Assembly (NCBI GenBank): GCA_018813295.1
Contig: JAHJBZ010000072.1
Coordinates: forward strand, 1 to 37,445
DNA: 37,445 nucleotides
Reading direction: 5' to 3'
Source of the DNA: Patescibacteria group bacterium
GTDB taxonomy: Bacteria; Patescibacteriota; Gracilibacteria; UM-FILTER-43-11
Positions 371 to 8,220 of this stretch are shown here, piece after piece (position 1 is the first letter of the stretch; every line of letters starts with the position of its first letter). Made by a program: the position numbers and the translations under genes. The notes beneath the pieces are model-generated. The model was not told the DNA's origin. It ran no database searches and saw nothing but the letters and a program-made list of their open reading frames with translations.

Positions 371-1102
371 TTATACTTCAAATTCCGTCCCGCAATTATT
401 ACATTTGTATGCGTTGCCTATGTTGACTGTAGGTCCAAAGCTCAAGCCCATATCTGATTTTATTACACCACATTTGGGGCATTTAATTCTATTCCGTACC
501 CCTGTCCACATAGAGTCGATGGTTGCCTCTTTCAATGGAGAGCTACCAGTGAAATGTTTTTTTAATAAACGTACAAATGCCTCGGGATCACTAACTATTC
601 TTTCCAGATCAAATTGATGTTTAAGTAATTCTGGCTCTTTATAGCCAGGGGTTTCGATTTCTTTGAGGGCTGCTTGTATTGATTGCTTTAGTGCCTTGGG
701 GTATTCTAAATCGCTCGGGTTATATCTAATTGATCTCCAATTTTTAATATCAAATGGAACTGCTTGACCATCTGGATATATTTGAATCACTGGCTTTTTG
801 GCAATGTGGCGTATTGCGGCCTCATACATCACATTGGGGTTTGGACCACTTTCGATAGTCTCACCAGTGTAATCTATAATGGCCAAATCGTCGTCTAAAA
901 TATGGTCAATTATTTGGTCTGTTATTAGTCCTGGTGCAGCAATACTGTCTGCTCTGATTGGCTCATATTTTGTGTTAATAGCTGGCTTGTAAATAAGATT
1001 CATCCATTGATCCACTCGCTCTCTGACAATAGAGCCAGGTTGGCCAATTGGGGTAATGATGAAGCATTTTTTCTTGGGATTTGCTTTTCCTGTCTTTGAC
1101 AT
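371..1102 (-). CDS. TIR/nucleoside 2-deoxyribosyltransferase-like protein with C-terminal zinc ribbon
   Basis: The 243-aa protein opens with CFIITPIG (13-20), the first strand of the nucleotide-binding fold shared by nucleoside 2-deoxyribosyltransferase-like and bacterial TIR-like domains. It continues with the IRADSI region (49-54), DDLAIIDYTG (71-80) and NPNVMYEAAIRH (88-99). In that last motif E94 occupies the position of the catalytic Glu of these families. PFDIKNWRSIRY (116-127) closes the domain. A C-terminal zinc ribbon follows: C208/C211 and C234/C237. Family members cleave N-glycosidic bonds, and many bacterial ones are NAD-directed immune effectors, but no sensor, cyclase or SAVED partner lies beside this gene. 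Role as an immune NADase is therefore only inferred. There is no Shine-Dalgarno before the ATG at 1102. Confidence 0.7.
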   Translation of the reverse strand: MSKTGKANPKKKCFIITPIGQPGSIVRERVDQWMNLIYKPAINTKYEPIRADSIAAPGLITDQIIDHILDDDLAIIDYTGETIESGPNPNVMYEAAIRHIAKKPVIQIYPDGQAVPFDIKNWRSIRYNPSDLEYPKALKQSIQAALKEIETPGYKEPELLKHQFDLERIVSDPEAFVRLLKKHFTGSSPLKEATIDSMWTGVRNRIKCPKCGVIKSDMGLSFGPTVNIGNAYKCNNCGTEFEV

Positions 1103-1150: not shown

Positions 1151-1226
1151 TGGTGGGCCAGGTAGGAATTGAACCTACGACCAATCGATTATGAGTCGAC
1201 TGCTCTAACCACTGAGCTACTGGCCC
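1151..1226 (-). tRNA. tRNA with CAU anticodon (Ile2 or elongator Met)
   Basis: A full 76-nt cloverleaf on the minus strand with genome-encoded CCA (1151-1153). The acceptor stem is GGGCCAG/CTGGCCC and the D arm is GCTCAGTGGTTAGAGC. The anticodon loop is CTCATAA and the T arm carries GGTTCAA. It is not the initiator: base pair 1-72 is G-C and the anticodon stem lacks three G-C pairs. The TTGGTCG segment after the anticodon stem resembles tRNA-Ile2, which needs TilS lysidine modification, but elongator tRNA-Met cannot be excluded. Confidence 0.9.
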
Positions 1227-1472: not shown

Positions 1473-3290
1473 ATGCCAGGTACTGACGATTCACAAATCA
1501 TTGGACCGCAAAAGAGACCTGGATCAGCTCCTGATGTGACGTATGCAGATTTGATGGATGAAATTGGAGAATCTCCAGCACAGCAGCGAGAGGCCTTGAT
1601 GGTAGATCAGGAGTGGGAAGAGACGGTAAAAGCTGTAGGGCCGGCAGCACTTGTGATTGCGGGCATATTGCTTTTGAAAACTTTGGAAGAGAAAGAGGAG
1701 GAAGCTGAAGAAGTTGAGACCCAGGAAGATCTAGAAAAACCTAAGGCTGATATTGCACCATTTGTTGGTGTGGATGTTGTGCCAGCTGAGCAAGGTGAGC
1801 TATCTGAAGATCAGGAGCGTTTTGCTAAACTTCGGGAGGAATTAACTGAAGAAATGGGTGACGCCGAATTTGCTAATGAGGTTGCTTTTTATGCTCAGAA
1901 AATTTATGAAAATACTGCTGTTCCGCTTGAGTTTGGTAAAAAATATAGCTCAAAGGTAACCGTTGAAAATTTTGATGGTTCAGACCGCAGAATTACTAAT
2001 AATTGTGTTGGTTTTACAATGGCATCTTTGGCAGGTATTCCTTTTAAGATATCAGCAGAAGGGAGCAATGAAGGGCGTTATTTGAGTGCTTATGCCTGGT
2101 CTGGCAGGGATGGTTATCGCGATTTTATTCCAGATATCGTTGGTAAAGAAAAATTTAGATATGAAAGGGTTAAGCTAGATCCAGATCGCGTTGATGAACA
2201 AGTGAGCCAACACTTAGCAACAGGGGAATATGCTGTTGCTGCTTTTTTTAACCATGTTTTCTTAATTTATAAAGACATGGAAGGTGAGGTTAAAATGGTT
2301 CATTCCGGTGCGAATGTAGATGAGGCTGGAGTGGCCCAAGGTTACTCCAGGGCTAATGAAACTTCACTCTCTGCTTATGCAGTGCGCATGCAAAGACAAG
2401 GAAAGCCTATGCAGTTTGAGTTTGTAAGACTTCGCGATATTGTTGCTGTGGCAAAAAATTATAATAATAGAGAAGTCGATGAATTTTATCAGGCGGAAGC
2501 GATGCCTAGAGGTGCTACCACAGCTGAAGCAGTCAGGTTTGCTGAGCAGACTCAGGGTTTGGAATTTATGAGGCAAGGTGCTGTAGATAGCCAGGGGAAA
2601 CCTTACATCACTTTATCCCGCTTAATGGACAGAGTTGCTGATGTAAGTGGGACTTCTATGGCAATTACAGAGGTTAATTATAATTGGGATGTTCATCAGG
2701 ATAAAAATTTTGTAGGAAATAGGCAATGTGCGCGCACCGTTGGCAATATTTTAGGTTTAGGAGGTCCGGAAGGAGCACAGCATAACTGGATGTCTGTAAC
2801 ATGGGGGCTGGTTCCCGGGCTGATTGCCGGTAATCTTGAAAGAACCGGGCATACCGGAATTATTTATGGAATGGAGAATTTTATAAAGGGTGATGTTATT
2901 TGTTACAGGGGTGGCGAAGGAGCAACTGATTACGGTCATGGACGTTTTTCTCATGTGGGGATTGTGCGGGATGTTCTTACTATTGATGGTGAGAAATATA
3001 TTGCCATGCAGCATAATGGAAGCACCCGTTTATTAATTGACCTTCTCCCTCTTAATCCTGACCAAACTAAATGGAAGGAGTTGAAAAAAAAGATGGATAA
3101 TCCGAAAACCAGGGAAGAGTTTATTGCCCAGTATCCAAAACTGGCTCCTCTTTATGAATATAGAAGTGATTATCCTCAATCCGTTCAGGTGCTTAGGGCA
3201 AGGCCTATGGATACCTCTAAGGGCAGAGGAGGACGTATTGCTTTTGCTGTAAGAACTTCTACTTTGGTTCCGAAAAGGTATTATGCCTAA
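1473..3290 (+). CDS. Two-module papain-like (NlpC/P60-CHAP-like) protein with one membrane segment
   Basis: 605 aa. An acidic N-terminus carries one hydrophobic segment (about 55-69) followed by a Glu-rich linker. Module 1 (about 125-340) has NNCVGF (C178), NHVFLIY (H261) and VHSG (H277). Module 2 (about 355-595) has RQCARTVG (C419), FSHVGIV (H494) and MQHNG (H514). The order Cys, then His in a strand, then a third polar residue, resembles the papain-like NlpC/P60 and CHAP fold of peptidoglycan hydrolases and amidases; this is a motif-level guess. Module 2 is closely matched by the next gene and module 1 by the one after. There is no cleavable signal peptide, so the protein may be cytoplasmic or anchored by its single segment. 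Substrate unknown. Confidence 0.65.
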   Translation: MPGTDDSQIIGPQKRPGSAPDVTYADLMDEIGESPAQQREALMVDQEWEETVKAVGPAALVIAGILLLKTLEEKEEEAEEVETQEDLEKPKADIAPFVGVDVVPAEQGELSEDQERFAKLREELTEEMGDAEFANEVAFYAQKIYENTAVPLEFGKKYSSKVTVENFDGSDRRITNNCVGFTMASLAGIPFKISAEGSNEGRYLSAYAWSGRDGYRDFIPDIVGKEKFRYERVKLDPDRVDEQVSQHLATGEYAVAAFFNHVFLIYKDMEGEVKMVHSGANVDEAGVAQGYSRANETSLSAYAVRMQRQGKPMQFEFVRLRDIVAVAKNYNNREVDEFYQAEAMPRGATTAEAVRFAEQTQGLEFMRQGAVDSQGKPYITLSRLMDRVADVSGTSMAITEVNYNWDVHQDKNFVGNRQCARTVGNILGLGGPEGAQHNWMSVTWGLVPGLIAGNLERTGHTGIIYGMENFIKGDVICYRGGEGATDYGHGRFSHVGIVRDVLTIDGEKYIAMQHNGSTRLLIDLLPLNPDQTKWKELKKKMDNPKTREEFIAQYPKLAPLYEYRSDYPQSVQVLRARPMDTSKGRGGRIAFAVRTSTLVPKRYYA

Positions 3291-3292
3291 TT

Positions 3293-3335
3293 GACGAAAT
3301 AACGAAACAACGATACAACGATACGACGAAACAAC
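3293..3335 (+). repeat. Degenerate ACGATACAACGA-type tandem repeat
   Basis: Roughly five 8-10-base units of the form (A)ACGA(T/A)A(C/T) fill the spacer between the first two papain-like genes. The same oligonucleotide family recurs at 26140-26170 and 28496-28522, and in reverse at 28597-28620. Confidence 0.6.
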
Positions 3336-3366
3336 ATTATTGTTATCTAAGTATAATTAAAAATTT

Positions 3367-4335
3367 ATGACACCAGCTGGAGTACCAGAATTACTTCATG
3401 GGCCTGACGATACTGAACCAGACCAAAAATCTGAGGATGATGCATTGAGTGATACATTAATGACTGGGCGTGAATTGTATGAGAGGGCGAGTGTTAAGAT
3501 CAATCAACAGGAAATTTTAAGAAGGAAAGAAGGGCTGACTACGGATGAGGTTATTGGATATGTTAATATCACTGATGGTTTAGAATTTTTGAGATCTGGC
3601 GCAAGAGATCAGTATGGTAAGCCGTATTTTACTTTAGTCTATACTTTTGATCGAGCTGATACTTTTCGAGAGACTCATTATCCAATAAATCAAGTGGATT
3701 ATAATTGGAATGTTCATCAAGAAAAATATTTTGTAGGAGAAAGGCAGTGTGCACGTACTGTTGGTAATATTCTTGGATTTGGCGGTGAAACTGGCGGGAC
3801 ACATGACTATATGGCTGTTACAAAATATCTGGTACCTGCATTAGTTGCTGGAAATCTTGAGAGAACAGATGGGCAATATACCGGGATTATTTTTGGGATT
3901 GAGAATTTTCAAATAGGAGATGTAATTGTTTATAAAGGCGGTGATGATATCAATGATTACGGCCATGGCCGTTTTTCTCATGTGGGGATTGTCAGGGATA
4001 TTTTGGATATAGATGGAGAAAGATATATTGCCATGCAGCATAATGGCAGAACTCAGCTGCACATCGATTTAATTCCGCTTGATCCTGATCAAACTAGTTG
4101 GGAGAGTTTAGGTGAAAGACTGTCTGATCCCGAATCAAGGCAGGAGCTTATTGCACAGTATCCCGAGCTTGCGCCTATTTATGAATACAGGAAAGATTAC
4201 CCAGAAACTGTTCGGGTACTTGAAGCAGAACCTCGGGATGCGTCAAAAGGAAGAGGCGGACGTATTGCTTTTGCTGTGCGCACATCAACTCTTTTAACAG
4301 AGCCAGAAGCTCAAGAGTATTTAGCTTCGAGATAA
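3367..4335 (+). CDS. Single-module papain-like protein, paralog of module 2
   Basis: 322 aa. After an acidic N-terminus of about 60 residues, the protein matches residues 355-595 of the upstream 605-aa protein almost throughout: RQCARTVGNILG (C128), GHGRFSHVGIV (H205), MQHNG (H225), then SKGRGGRIAFAVRTSTL near the end. It has no transmembrane segment or signal peptide. A TATAAT at 3352-3357, nine bases before the ATG, would give a very short or absent leader; no good -35 accompanies it. Spacing to the next gene is 10 bases, so the pair is probably co-transcribed. It looks like a domain-fission or duplication product of the two-module gene. Enzymatic role is inferred only from Cys/His geometry. 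Confidence 0.65.
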   Translation: MTPAGVPELLHGPDDTEPDQKSEDDALSDTLMTGRELYERASVKINQQEILRRKEGLTTDEVIGYVNITDGLEFLRSGARDQYGKPYFTLVYTFDRADTFRETHYPINQVDYNWNVHQEKYFVGERQCARTVGNILGFGGETGGTHDYMAVTKYLVPALVAGNLERTDGQYTGIIFGIENFQIGDVIVYKGGDDINDYGHGRFSHVGIVRDILDIDGERYIAMQHNGRTQLHIDLIPLDPDQTSWESLGERLSDPESRQELIAQYPELAPIYEYRKDYPETVRVLEAEPRDASKGRGGRIAFAVRTSTLLTEPEAQEYLASR

Positions 4336-4345
4336 ATTAAATTAT

Positions 4346-5452
4346 ATGTATTTTCAATTTTTTAAAAATCATCGGTTTGTGTATGAGTTAGCCGATTCTG
4401 GTGATGTTAAACCAGAAATAGTTGCTGAGGAGCTTGATGAAGTTGAAGAAGATGTGGATCATGAAACAGTGGCAGACAAACAGAGAGTTGCAGCAAGTAA
4501 TCTTGGAAGAAAATTAGCAAGAGACGCCAATAGGGTACTTGGTGATGATATTACACCTGAACAAAGAGCTAGCGCGAGGAGCATGGGAAGAAGGATGCTA
4601 AAATCCTTGGAAGCATCTATTGGTGAAAGATCACCAGATGAAGTTGCAGATGTTTTGGATGATTTTCAAGAACCATCAGAAGAATATACAGCGTTGCCAG
4701 AAGGCATGACGCCAACCGCAGCCCAACAAATGTATGAACTTTTTGGTATCTTAGAAGAAGAGCGAGGTTCAGAGGTATCTTTTTATGCTCAGGAAATATA
4801 TAGAAATATTCAAGATGCACTTGAATCCGGGAGGTTCTATCTTACGGATGTAGTTGTTGAAAATTATGATGGCTCTGGGCGCGAAATATTAAATAGTTGT
4901 GTTGGTTTTGTAATGTCAGCTTTTGCAGGGCTTCCTTTTAAGGTTGCTAGTGGAGAGAATGAAAATTGTTATTTGAGTGCATATGGCTGGGGGAAGACAC
5001 ATCAGACACCTAAGGGAAAAGATGGTATGCAACACTTCATTCCCGATTGTGCTGGTGAAGGAGAACCACCTCGTTATACAGATGTTCAAGAGCTAGACCC
5101 AGAATCAATTGACGAGCAAGTGGGACAACATTTGGCAGTAGGGGAATATGCAGTTGCTGCGTTTATGAATCATGTTTTTTTAATTTATAAAGATGGTGCA
5201 GGTGTAGTAAAAATGGTTCATTCTGGTGCTGTTGTAAATGAACAAGGTAAAAGGCTTTCAGCTCCAGGCAAAAGCAGGGTTAATGAAACAACCTTAGCCG
5301 GTTATGCTAAGTATATGAAAAGACGCTATCCGAGATTAATGCAATTTAGATTTTTGCCTATTAGTGAAATTGTAGCAGCATCGGAAGAAAGGGATGATAG
5401 GGAAGTTTATAAATATTATTCCTTTACCCATCTGACCAGACGTGCGGCTTAA
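4346..5452 (+). CDS. Single-module papain-like protein, paralog of module 1
   Basis: 368 aa. The N-terminal 120 residues are charged and helical and unlike the other two genes. From about residue 125 it matches module 1 of the 605-aa protein: VSFYAQEIY, VVENYDGSGREI, NSCVGF (C185), GEYAVAAFMNHVFLIYKD (H276) and KMVHSGA (H292). The Cys and both His residues are conserved, which argues for an active enzyme rather than a decaying copy. It follows the module 2 gene by 10 bases and stops one base from the convergent rplI, leaving no room for a terminator. No signal peptide or membrane segment is visible. Function unknown. Confidence 0.65.
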   Translation: MYFQFFKNHRFVYELADSGDVKPEIVAEELDEVEEDVDHETVADKQRVAASNLGRKLARDANRVLGDDITPEQRASARSMGRRMLKSLEASIGERSPDEVADVLDDFQEPSEEYTALPEGMTPTAAQQMYELFGILEEERGSEVSFYAQEIYRNIQDALESGRFYLTDVVVENYDGSGREILNSCVGFVMSAFAGLPFKVASGENENCYLSAYGWGKTHQTPKGKDGMQHFIPDCAGEGEPPRYTDVQELDPESIDEQVGQHLAVGEYAVAAFMNHVFLIYKDGAGVVKMVHSGAVVNEQGKRLSAPGKSRVNETTLAGYAKYMKRRYPRLMQFRFLPISEIVAASEERDDREVYKYYSFTHLTRRAA

Positions 5453-5453
5453 T

Positions 5454-5897
5454 TTATTCCTCTTCTACTTTAACTACAATTTTTACTTCTACGCCTTCTG
5501 CTAGTTGTAATTTTACCTTGTGTTCGCCGAGGTCTTTTATGTGACTTTTCATTTTTACCGCTTCTTTGGCTATCTCTATCTTATGTTCTTTTTTCAAAGC
5601 TTCGATAATATCCTTTTCAGTAATAGAGCCATATAGTTTTTTGCCTTTGGCTTTCTTCTTGAATGTTAGTCCAACATTAGCAAGTGATTCTTTCGTTTCT
5701 TTTGCTTCTGCGATTACTTTTTCTAATTTTTTAGCACGTTCAGCCAGAACTTGTTCCGCTTTTTTCATTAGTGATGCTGTTGCTGGTTCAGCTAATTTTT
5801 GAGGCAATAGAAAATTACGAGCATAGCCAGATTTAACGGTTACTACGTCCCATTCTTGGCCTAAATTTGGAACACGGGTTTTTAGAATTACTTTCAT
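5454..5897 (-). CDS. rplI: 50S ribosomal protein L9
   Basis: 147 aa, the normal length for bL9. The N-terminal RNA-binding domain is recognisable from [13 protein letters not shown] and the [16 protein letters not shown] segment (22-37). A long charged connecting helix (about 42-75) and the C-terminal domain with [10 protein letters not shown] follow. bL9 binds 23S rRNA near the L1 stalk and helps maintain reading frame. Some CPR groups lack L9, so its presence is mildly informative about lineage. It lies downstream of the solute-binding protein gene and secG on the same strand. The start has no Shine-Dalgarno; the upstream bases are AT-rich. Confidence 0.97.
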
Positions 5898-6018: not shown

Positions 6019-8220
6019 TTAAAATTGTTTAATTATCCAGGATAAAAATGTGAGAATACCAGTACCTTCTTTGAATGTGCGATCAACTTTAGCATACCAG
6101 TTTCCAACAGATGCAAAACGGTCACTGGTTGTTGCTAAATTATCGAAGGTAGCGTTTTGGATTTTATCTGACAAGGCAAAGTAATAAGTAGGGCTATAAA
6201 GGAAAACTGCAGGCACTTCCTGGCTAATGATCTGCTGAATGTCGTTCAGTGTGTTTTTGCGATCTTCAGCTTCTGTTTCGTATCGCGCTTTTTCCAGCAA
6301 GCTATCTACAACGAAATTTTTGAATTGTGAAAGATTTAATCCGCTCTCATTAGCCTGGCTACTATGCCAGTAAGGATAAGCGTCGAGATTATACCCCAGG
6401 TTCTGACCAAAAATCAACAAGTCATATTCACGGCTGCTCACACGCTGTTGAAATATTCCGTTATCTAAAACTTCAATATTCAAATCAACGCCAATTTTTT
6501 TCCACTGTTCCTTTATAATTTCAGCAACCTGGCTGTAGGCTTCCGGCTTCATGCTTGTAATTAAATTTAAGGTCAATTTTTCTCCTTCTTCATTTTCTCT
6601 GATTGGCAATTCTTCAGCGACTTCATTTTCTATTTCCAGTTGTTGTTTTTCTTCTTCAAAGAAAGTGGTTTTAGTTCCATAAGTGATTGTAATAGCATCA
6701 ATTAATGTTGTTTCACCGTTGAAATCTGTTGCATACACTTCAAATATATTTTCTCCAAGCTTAAGGTTGTCGTATTCAGTGGTGGCCATGTAACTCCACC
6801 CAGGATCTCCAGGGACATATTTGCTTAGTTCATAATCGTTAACTGCAATTGATTTTGTGTTTGCTGGCGCTGTTCCTGTAATAGTAACTCTGGTATCGGT
6901 TGTTCTGTAATCCTTTCCTTCGTTAGGGCTATTTATATAGGTGACTTCACTTGTGCCTATGTCTTCGTTGATATCTTCGCATTCTTTGTCGTTTTCTTCA
7001 CACTCTTCTTCCAGAGACGCAGGATCCTGCGTCTCTACGTCATCCTCCTCCTCGGACGCGAGATCTCGCGTCCCTACTTCGCATTCTTCGTCGTCTTCTT
7101 CGCATTCTATTTCTTCTTCATCTTTGCTAGGAATTTTCCACTCAGTATCAAATAGGGCTCCGTTTGCTTTTTTTACACTGTATTGATGAACCCAATTTTC
7201 CTGGTCGATTTCAAGAAGCGGTGTGTCTATTGTTTTATTCTGGCCGATTTCTTCTATTAAACCTTCTTTATCCGTTCCCAATTGCAGGGCCAAACGCACA
7301 ATGCTTCCTTTCAGCTTAGGTGATTCGTTGTTAATGAATATGGCTACATATTGCGGAAGGTGATAACGCACTAAAGTCATTTTTTTAACGACTTTATCAG
7401 TGTATTCTGCTGGCACGTTCCTAACTCCGTCCAAATCGCTTAATTTTTTTTGCAGATCCTGGAATGTTGGGAATACTTTAATTAAAATATTTTCGATGTG
7501 TGCGGGTGAATCGTAATAATCCTCAAAAGCCTCCAGGCTTATTTCTACGTGATCACCGAAATGGTTTTGAGCTATAAATTTATATCTACCCGAACCTGTT
7601 GGCATAAAGTTGAATGGGGCTGTTTCCAGGTATTCAATAGACTCATTTTCTAATAAGTGGCGAGGAAGCAGTCCTGTCATTGTTTTTACCAAAAAGAAAG
7701 AATCAGGTCTTTCGAGTAGGAACTGTACTGTTCGTTCATCAATTTTATCTATTCTTATTCCGCTGTAATCGTTGTAATTTAAAATAGTACCATTAAATAC
7801 AGGATTCTTTATCACGTCGTTGTAGGTAAACATTACATCATCTGCTGTAACCGGCTCTCCGTCATGCCATTTTGCCCCTTCCTTGATTACAAATGTGTAT
7901 TCCTTTCCATTAGAGGAAACTTTGAAGTTTGCAATGTCACCAACGATATCTTGTGTTTCTGAATCATATTTTGTTAGTCCGGAAAAAATCAATTGAGTCA
8001 GATCATGAGTAATAGATCCCTGATGAACAAAAAGAGGATTTAACATTTCAATTGTTCCGACAGCACCTTCAGCGTAAACGCCTCCATCCACTGGTGTAAA
8101 ATCCGTGTGTTCTAAATAAAAAGCATGAGCTATTTGGAAGCCTGCAATAACTACAATCAAAGCCAAAAAGGCTATTATAATTTTTTCGACTTTATTCAAG
8201 TGGCTAATAACTTTCTTCAT
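6019..8220 (-). CDS. Family-5 peptide/oligopeptide solute-binding protein with inserted Ig-like domain
   Basis: 733 aa. An N-terminal hydrophobic segment (13-33) without a clear lipobox suggests membrane anchoring outside the cell. The SBP_bac_5 fold is clear: LNPLFVHQGS, YTFVIKEGAKWHDGEPVTAD (108-127), VMFTYND and GSGRYKF in the N-lobe, and LTLNLITSMKP, IIKEQWKKIGVDL, YDLLIFGQN and NTLNDIQQIISQEVPAVFLY in the C-lobe. Between the lobes lies an insertion: a very acidic Cys-containing linker (366-420) and an Ig-like/cadherin-like beta domain (about 424-516). The linker contains two DNA palindromes translated in frame. Family members bind peptides for ABC import, but no permease or ATPase is in this window. 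The DNA runs secG, then this gene, then rplI on the minus strand. Start at MKKVISHL is supported by the following membrane segment. Confidence 0.9.
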   Translation of the reverse strand: MKKVISHLNKVEKIIIAFLALIVVIAGFQIAHAFYLEHTDFTPVDGGVYAEGAVGTIEMLNPLFVHQGSITHDLTQLIFSGLTKYDSETQDIVGDIANFKVSSNGKEYTFVIKEGAKWHDGEPVTADDVMFTYNDVIKNPVFNGTILNYNDYSGIRIDKIDERTVQFLLERPDSFFLVKTMTGLLPRHLLENESIEYLETAPFNFMPTGSGRYKFIAQNHFGDHVEISLEAFEDYYDSPAHIENILIKVFPTFQDLQKKLSDLDGVRNVPAEYTDKVVKKMTLVRYHLPQYVAIFINNESPKLKGSIVRLALQLGTDKEGLIEEIGQNKTIDTPLLEIDQENWVHQYSVKKANGALFDTEWKIPSKDEEEIECEEDDEECEVGTRDLASEEEDDVETQDPASLEEECEENDKECEDINEDIGTSEVTYINSPNEGKDYRTTDTRVTITGTAPANTKSIAVNDYELSKYVPGDPGWSYMATTEYDNLKLGENIFEVYATDFNGETTLIDAITITYGTKTTFFEEEKQQLEIENEVAEELPIRENEEGEKLTLNLITSMKPEAYSQVAEIIKEQWKKIGVDLNIEVLDNGIFQQRVSSREYDLLIFGQNLGYNLDAYPYWHSSQANESGLNLSQFKNFVVDSLLEKARYETEAEDRKNTLNDIQQIISQEVPAVFLYSPTYYFALSDKIQNATFDNLATTSDRFASVGNWYAKVDRTFKEGTGILTFLSWIIKQF
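7013..7036. repeat. Perfect 24-base palindrome inside coding sequence
   Basis: Half-arm AGAGACGCAGGA meets its exact complement at the axis 7024/7025. It encodes residues about 396-403 (ETQDPASL) of the solute-binding protein. It shares GTAG(A/G)GACGC..GATC..GCGTC with the next palindrome when read on the minus strand. Confidence 0.9.
7054..7073. repeat. Perfect 20-base palindrome inside coding sequence
   Basis: GGACGCGAGA followed by its exact complement, 17 bases from the 24-base palindrome. It encodes residues about 383-389 (GTRDLAS). Both palindromes are followed on the plus strand by TAC, indicating copies of one element type. Confidence 0.9.

Follow-up and report, generated by a model that had tools for sequence, protein, structure and literature searches.

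A proposed modular repertoire of putative peptidoglycan hydrolases without Sec-like signals in Peregrinibacteria/Gracilibacteria, exemplified by three tandem genes of Cys-His modules

The stretch of DNA analysed here, called the window, is one entire contig of 37,445 nucleotides (JAHJBZ010000072.1) from the genome (1.53 Mb in 87 contigs) of an uncultured, ultra-small Patescibacteria bacterium, and it carries three adjacent genes, P1, P2 and P3, that are built from two Cys-His modules, M1 and M2 (Table 1). We propose that P1-P3 probably belong to a repertoire of modular peptidoglycan hydrolases that lack Sec signals and are specific to the class Peregrinibacteria/Gracilibacteria. Distant relatives of both modules are joined to a common N-terminal domain, here named the N-domain. 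This unannotated family, carried by over a quarter of the class genomes, and the two wall-hydrolase-like modules belong to a class-wide, signal-less set that was previously unnoticed. The closest named relatives of the window's genome are a Patescibacteria metagenome-assembled genome (MAG; JAHIYT010000131) and a Candidatus Peregrinibacteria MAG (JAFGNE010000038). The genomes compared were MAGs, and some of the loci, given below by L numbers, are cut by contig ends.

An initial annotation of the window had described a tandem cluster in which a 605-residue protein holds both modules, the next gene M2 alone and the third M1 alone, and both the exact coordinates and the module matches bear this out. 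P2 matches only the M2 half of P1 (62% identity, E = 2.9e-108), P3 matches only the M1 half (56% identity, E = 2.9e-63), and no further copies of these modules were found in the window's genome. The annotation had also held that the Cys and His residues are kept in every copy; we located them in all copies and found them conserved in the relatives of both modules. The Cys and the two His residues of M1 are invariant in all eight sequences, three of which are just 31-34% identical to P1. All eight M2 sequences have the first His, and each one that covers the Cys position has the Cys, while the third residue is His in P1, P2, L031, L032 and L036 and Glu or Asp in L033, L034 and L035. The third catalytic residue is His in NlpC/P60 enzymes and an acid or amide in CHAP enzymes, and the variation in M2 falls within what these enzymes use. 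The ratio of nonsynonymous to synonymous substitution rates (dN/dS) between the paralogues is about 0.17-0.38 where computable, a rough estimate with dS close to saturation. Since the paralogues differ mostly at synonymous sites, the copies in P1-P3 are real genes under constraint. The conserved residues suggest that all of the copies are likely to be active, as had been supposed.

The family had not been recognised at the outset, and Pfam, PHROGs and NCBIfam likewise gave no match above cut-off for P1-P3. The modules had been called papain-like, a description supported for M2 by weak profile matches near NlpC/P60 and CHAP, while M1 is papain-like solely by its residue layout and predicted AlphaFold topology. 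The M2 profile matches NlpC/P60-type dipeptidyl-peptidase VI (3npf/3pvq) at E = 0.007-0.009, and single M2 members match NLPC_P60, CHAP, Amidase_5 and Peptidase_C39, all of them papain-like, at E = 0.0009-0.08 (best single member: Pfam NLPC_P60 E = 0.0009, CHAP E = 0.013). Pfam gave no NLPC_P60 match for P1 or P2 themselves; CHAP (PF05257) alone matched M2 of P1 and P2, weakly at E 0.02-0.05 and under the gathering score. M1 had no relevant match in Pfam or PDB. In the AlphaFold model of P1 (mean predicted local distance difference test score, pLDDT, 77.8; mostly 80-94 within M1 and M2), the Cys of M1 is placed at a helix start (177-185) and its His residues on strands 261-267 and 273-277, and the Cys of M2 lies at helix 419-426 with its His residues on strands 492-504 and 507-515. 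A Foldseek search with this model returned an NlpC/P60 endopeptidase as the top entry (E = 0.064, not significant), and its lower entries were more papain-like cysteine enzymes, including viral deubiquitinases and a toxin protease-like domain. Several weak, concordant matches thus support M2 as a remote NlpC/P60-like papain-fold peptidase or amidase, and M1 is probably a second, unrecognised Cys-His-His domain of the same fold.

When M2 is set beside NlpC/P60 enzymes (PF00877; 3npf/3pvq, endopeptidase 6sqx), the helix-start Cys, the GD motif and the HVGI-type strand are alike, as is the polar third residue carried by the strand that follows, and the best PDB-sequence and Foldseek matches of M2 and P1 are of this kind. 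On the other hand, M2 stays under the Pfam gathering score, has a long C-terminal extension and lacks a signal peptide, and M1 resembles these enzymes in layout only. The layouts of M1 and M2 are indeed similar to each other, but the older duplication that had been read from them is not supported, as M1 and M2 have no detectable sequence homology, with a probability of 0.19% in the hhalign profile-profile comparison; M2 reached 7% and 24% against two NlpC-type sets, and all remaining pairs were below 1.3%.

The wider repertoire appears through distant homologues of the catalytic modules. Distant M1 copies in three genomes (L028-L030) form the C-terminal parts of long N-domain proteins, and the distant M2 copies, found in six genomes, occupy the same place in L031, L032 and L034-L036; the exception is the M2 protein of L033, which has 345 amino acids and no identified N-domain. 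These long proteins that carry distant M1 or M2 are 600-930 amino acids in length and have in common the N-domain, of about 110 amino acids with the pattern IGxGxLLPP...GYYDxxGxYxPIxxGYxI. It is present in 99 of 353 genomes of the class, and an improved model detected it in 14 of 380 genomes sampled across the phylum, all 14 of which belong to this class. Whether a genome is scored as lacking it depends on the model, as model A3 found none in the window's family and the improved model A6 found it in 5 of 18 genomes. The one N-domain protein of the window's genome is joined to a CHAP-like module, M3 (L171). The predicted structure of the N-domain has a confident core (pLDDT >90) with no match at E <0.001 among solved and viral structures, and it may be described at most as a generic small beta-rich domain. 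An aromatic N-terminal motif (e.g. FxxxRFVF) is found on 12 of 72 N-domain proteins compared with 6 of 382 neighbours, and P3 begins with such a motif (MYFQFFKNHRFVYEL). In some N-domain carriers TGA encodes an amino acid, a reassignment also known from Gracilibacteria and Absconditabacteria. The Patescibacteria literature, in the incomplete portion covered, contains no mention of a shared N-terminal domain or of a signal-less wall-enzyme repertoire.

According to Pfam, and in agreement with NCBIfam, the C-terminal parts of 71 N-domain proteins are mostly wall enzymes: SLT (14), glucosaminidase (6), M15 (5), NLPC_P60 (4) and amidase_2 (1), together with GDSL (5), class A beta-lactamase/S11 (2) and polysaccharide deacetylase, and certain proteins bear two different wall enzymes (M15 with SLT, or an NlpC-like domain with SLT). 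Certain chromosomal positions stay the same while the enzyme found there is exchanged. The site between ksgA and pyrF has an N-domain fused to M2 (L034, and L032 beside pyrF), to a beta-lactamase-like domain (L067, L069) or to a CHAP-like domain (L085, L109, L116), and at a site adjacent to pyrD it is joined to M2 (L035) or to a CHAP-like domain (L107, L117). This swapping indicates that M1 and M2 are cassettes in a pool, and such a pool would explain why the fused P1 stands beside the single-module P2 and P3. The initial annotation had instead taken M1 and M2 to be two cooperating subunits, which would make P1 a fused enzyme and P2 plus P3 its separated form. The adjoining fused and split copies would fit this, but among the 353 class genomes surveyed only the window's has both modules, M1 occurring alone in five and M2 alone in six, and we consider the subunit arrangement very unlikely.

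On these grounds we suggest that M1 and M2 would each act as an exchangeable catalytic cassette; in the window's family such cassettes occupy a variable slot between tRNA-Met and rplI, and in other families they are attached to the N-domain at other fixed sites. The enzymes would be synthesised in the cytoplasm, their N-terminal module would serve to hold or recruit them, and after an exit that bypasses Sec they would cleave peptide or amide bonds in a murein wall. We infer murein cleavage from the other enzymes with which the modules are grouped and from the likeness of M2 to NlpC/P60; catalysis, also by M1, and export are likewise putative. In our view the proteins most probably hydrolyse murein outside the cell that makes them, having left it by a route other than Sec. 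If they were instead cytoplasmic cysteine proteases or amidases with a substrate other than the wall (in protein processing, deubiquitinase-like activity or defence), the missing export signals and the viral deubiquitinases and toxin protease-like domain in the Foldseek list of P1 would be accounted for. However, one scaffold exchanges its enzyme with transglycosylase, glucosaminidase, M15 and amidase, and no match to a defence family was found, which makes a cytoplasmic role improbable. Phage endolysins or prophage remnants would likewise be signal-less, multi-enzyme wall hydrolases, as the pairs of wall enzymes on some N-domain proteins recall, but IMG/VR holds no relative of M1 or M2, 50,697 phage records contain no relative of P1 or of an N-domain protein, and the N-domain has housekeeping surroundings and no significant viral fold match; we regard a phage origin as scarcely probable.

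The rplI region was compared in all 18 genomes of the window's family, and the slot holds a hydrolase-like gene in 12 of them, of at least six kinds. M1 occurs there in the window and in two further family members, L007 (two copies) and L008, at the same position, and M2 occurs in the window. The other contents are the CHAP-like module M3 (HCWDWV...GNHSVIFLGW; L007, L173, L178, L181), the NlpC-like module M5 (L172, CHAP E = 4e-4), VanY/M15 (L174, and L179, where it is fused to an esterase-like part), the Cys-His-Asp module M4 (L178, L183, L186) and an esterase (L007); the slot gene of L182 is broken off past its N-terminus. No hydrolase-like slot gene is present in L175, L176, L177 and L185, and the contigs of L180 and L184 stop too early. 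CHAP resembles these proteins through its weak matches to M2 of P1, P2 and the slot protein of L172, but its gathering score is never reached, and M3 and M5, though CHAP-like, are cassettes of their own within this system. The unrecognised M4 (TLCSxTAxxN...YDHRAxAFK...WYVLDPY) has a Cys-His-Asp layout resembling transglutaminase-type papain folds; it lies in the slot genes L178:476-1780(-), L183:4915-5970(-) and L186:6418-7245(-) and also in the N-domain protein L065. The slot esterase-like protein of L007 (7861-9045, +; 394 amino acids; PF00756 E 1e-4) has no signal peptide and contains a peptidoglycan-binding-like stretch (LQRALDMPDRIGRRGCDGMFGPITYRRFL). Within a few kb of the slot, at L175:3182-4249(-), there is a gene for PrgI, a VirB3-like component of a type IV secretion system (T4SS); Pfam was checked for L175 only, and ORFs (open reading frames) similar to it are near the slot in L007, L172, L181, L183, L185 and L186.

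A Sec-like signal was found in 0 of 68 complete N-domain proteins and in 51 of 357 neighbouring genes by the same crude test, which judges signal peptides by hydropathy and not by SignalP; the solute-binding protein beside the window's cluster passes it as a positive control. The slot proteins have no clear Sec signal, and P1 and L007a pass only from an internal start. The lack of a cleavable signal peptide that had been noted for P1-P3 therefore stands for all three, with the qualification that P1 has a hydrophobic possible anchor and P2 and P3 have none. Many slot proteins have in common an N-terminal amphipathic helix near 'LMGP/MAPL' despite their differing enzymes, and P1, L007a, L007b and L008 have in its place a more hydrophobic stretch of 15 residues near the N-terminus, with a mean Kyte-Doolittle value of 2.2-2.5 (2.49 for AVGPAALVIAGILLL of P1). 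AlphaFold places a long helix of low confidence at residues 35-73 of P1, spanning this stretch. A single N-terminal helix across the whole family was considered and rejected, as a model of the LMGP helix matches the rplI slot of seven genomes only and misses P1; the hydrophobic segment of P1 is just loosely comparable to that helix. These stretches would suit enzymes that remodel the cell's own wall by an unusual route, in the case of P1 by an uncleaved N-terminal signal anchor, and since no NlpC/P60 or SLT match was found in the window's genome, P1-P3 could belong to its wall-lytic set. Nevertheless, a hydrophobic segment is missing from P2, P3 and the N-domain proteins, and neither the patchy distribution nor the exchange of enzymes at a single site is readily explained by a housekeeping role. 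We consider self-wall remodelling possible, if rather doubtful.

The wall that is cut could also be that of another cell. P1-P3 and the N-domain proteins might be effectors that an orphan Patescibacteria T4SS injects into a host or prey bacterium, with the N-domain (in the window's family, the hydrophobic or amphipathic N-terminal helix) as the recruitment tag and the C-terminal cassette cutting the host wall. The constant N-terminal part, the swapped enzymes, the missing Sec signals and the repertoire of lipases and wall enzymes agree with this, and so does the resemblance to X-Tfe effectors of bacteria-killing T4SS, which are recruited through a domain that they have in common and attack murein or phospholipids (PMC6536674). 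The window's genome encodes PrgI, as does the rplI region of L175, and Patescibacteria T4SS mostly lack a relaxase and have unknown cargo (PMC12102498). However, a search of the neighbours with PrgI (blast) found no T4SS genes beside N-domain genes, which sit among housekeeping genes; no immunity-like gene adjoins the P1-P3 cluster, and T4SS are so common in the phylum that their presence tells little. By analogy, delivery through the Patescibacteria T4SS is possible, and we hold the effector explanation to be unlikely on present evidence. Its fullest form, an undescribed polymorphic effector system in which the N-domain (in the window's family, a counterpart helix) would tag a shifting set of lipases and murein-cutting enzymes, M1 and M2 included, for orphan T4SS injection into the bacteria lived on, is a shade less likely still. 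Both the T4SS and the self-wall explanations are more specific forms of the modular repertoire that we favour, so that the confidences we attach to them overlap.

Comparison with known delivery systems gives a similarly mixed picture. X-Tfe effectors with XVIPCD also place one common domain on varied wall-degrading or lipase domains with no evident Sec route, whereas the N-domain is N-terminal, has no known sequence relation to XVIPCD and no adjacent immunity gene. Polymorphic toxins have a constant N-terminal part and C-terminal enzymes exchanged at the same locus; the N-domain proteins, with at least eight enzyme kinds, show this pattern and P1-P3 do not show it directly, but the N-domain system has no immunity genes or known trafficking domain. 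The VirB1-type two-domain hydrolases of monoderm T4SS (PrgK, TraG, CD419) are multi-domain murein hydrolases of T4SS of the same MPF-FATA type, but they pair SLT with CHAP for assembly of the machine, whereas SLT is absent from P1-P3, and P2 and P3 lack a membrane segment. In the related predator Vampirococcus, wall hydrolases are named as predicted secreted proteins (PMC8080830).

Here, we need to consider several points that weigh against the modular repertoire. First, P1-P3 have no N-domain, and their link to the N-domain proteins runs through distant homologues of the catalytic modules (matches of E 1e-5 to 1e-46, plus one M2 match at 1e-3) with an N-terminus that is not shared. Second, M1 and M2 are both under the Pfam gathering scores. 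Third, the Foldseek E-value of the P1 model is no better than 0.064. Finally, alignment A4 includes a few N-domain proteins whose domains are not wall-related (phosphatase-like, VWA, DUF218), and the cargo of the N-domain may extend past wall enzymes.

Table 1. Positions of the P1-P3 cluster, its modules and the edges of the slot in the window.
Feature	Position	Strand	Description
P1	1473..3290	+	605 aa; hydrophobic segment, M1 and M2
Hydrophobic segment of P1 (aa 54-68), AVGPAALVIAGILLL	1632..1676	+	possible membrane anchor, by hydropathy
M1 of P1 (aa 130-348)	1860..2516	+	putative catalytic codons C178 2004-2006, H261 2253-2255, H277 2301-2303
M2 of P1 (aa 350-605)	2520..3287	+	NlpC/P60-like; putative catalytic codons C419 2727-2729, H494 2952-2954, H514 3012-3014
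P2	3367..4335	+	322 aa; M2 only; putative catalytic codons C128 3748-3750, H205 3979-3981, H225 4039-4041
P3	4346..5452	+	368 aa; M1 only; putative catalytic codons C185 4898-4900, H276 5171-5173, H292 5219-5221
tRNA-Met (cat)	1151..1226	-	one edge of the variable-enzyme slot common to relatives
rplI (ribosomal protein L9)	5454..5897	-	opposite edge of the slot

The cluster contains no extra plus-strand ORF of at least 80 amino acids. Promoters of their own for P1, P2 and P3 were not supported, as promoter-like sites in a consensus scan were no commoner than in shuffled sequence. TATAAT-like sequences lie at 1438-1472 and 3350-3366, at most about 30 bases upstream of the ATG of P1 and P2, a placement that hints at leaderless transcripts or very short leaders. 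Overlapping direct repeats of about 8 bases (ACGAAACA/ACGATACA) are found in the P1-P2 gap at 3294-3335, and a 25-nt imperfect inverted repeat (GCTGGCTCCACGG.../...GATGGAGCCAGC) lies between tRNA-Met and P1 at 1301-1380. A 243-amino-acid protein at 371-1102 (-), 'KKCFIITPIGQPGS...', has a zinc ribbon at its C-terminus and matches the phage families of unknown function phrog_3634 (E 2e-36) and phrog_10872; PADLOC gave no match for it, nor any that would indicate a defence system. The solute-binding protein at 6019-8220 (-) has a long acidic insert in its middle (EEEDDVETQDPASLEEECEENDKECED).

If the modular repertoire is as we propose, it would provide concrete candidates for how the ultra-small Patescibacteria open host walls and for what their relaxase-poor T4SS carries, and the N-domain would offer a handle for work on binding, localisation and structure. 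Even on the modest reading, in which the enzymes serve the cell's own wall, an unannotated domain family and two new wall-hydrolase-like modules would be added to what is known of this class.

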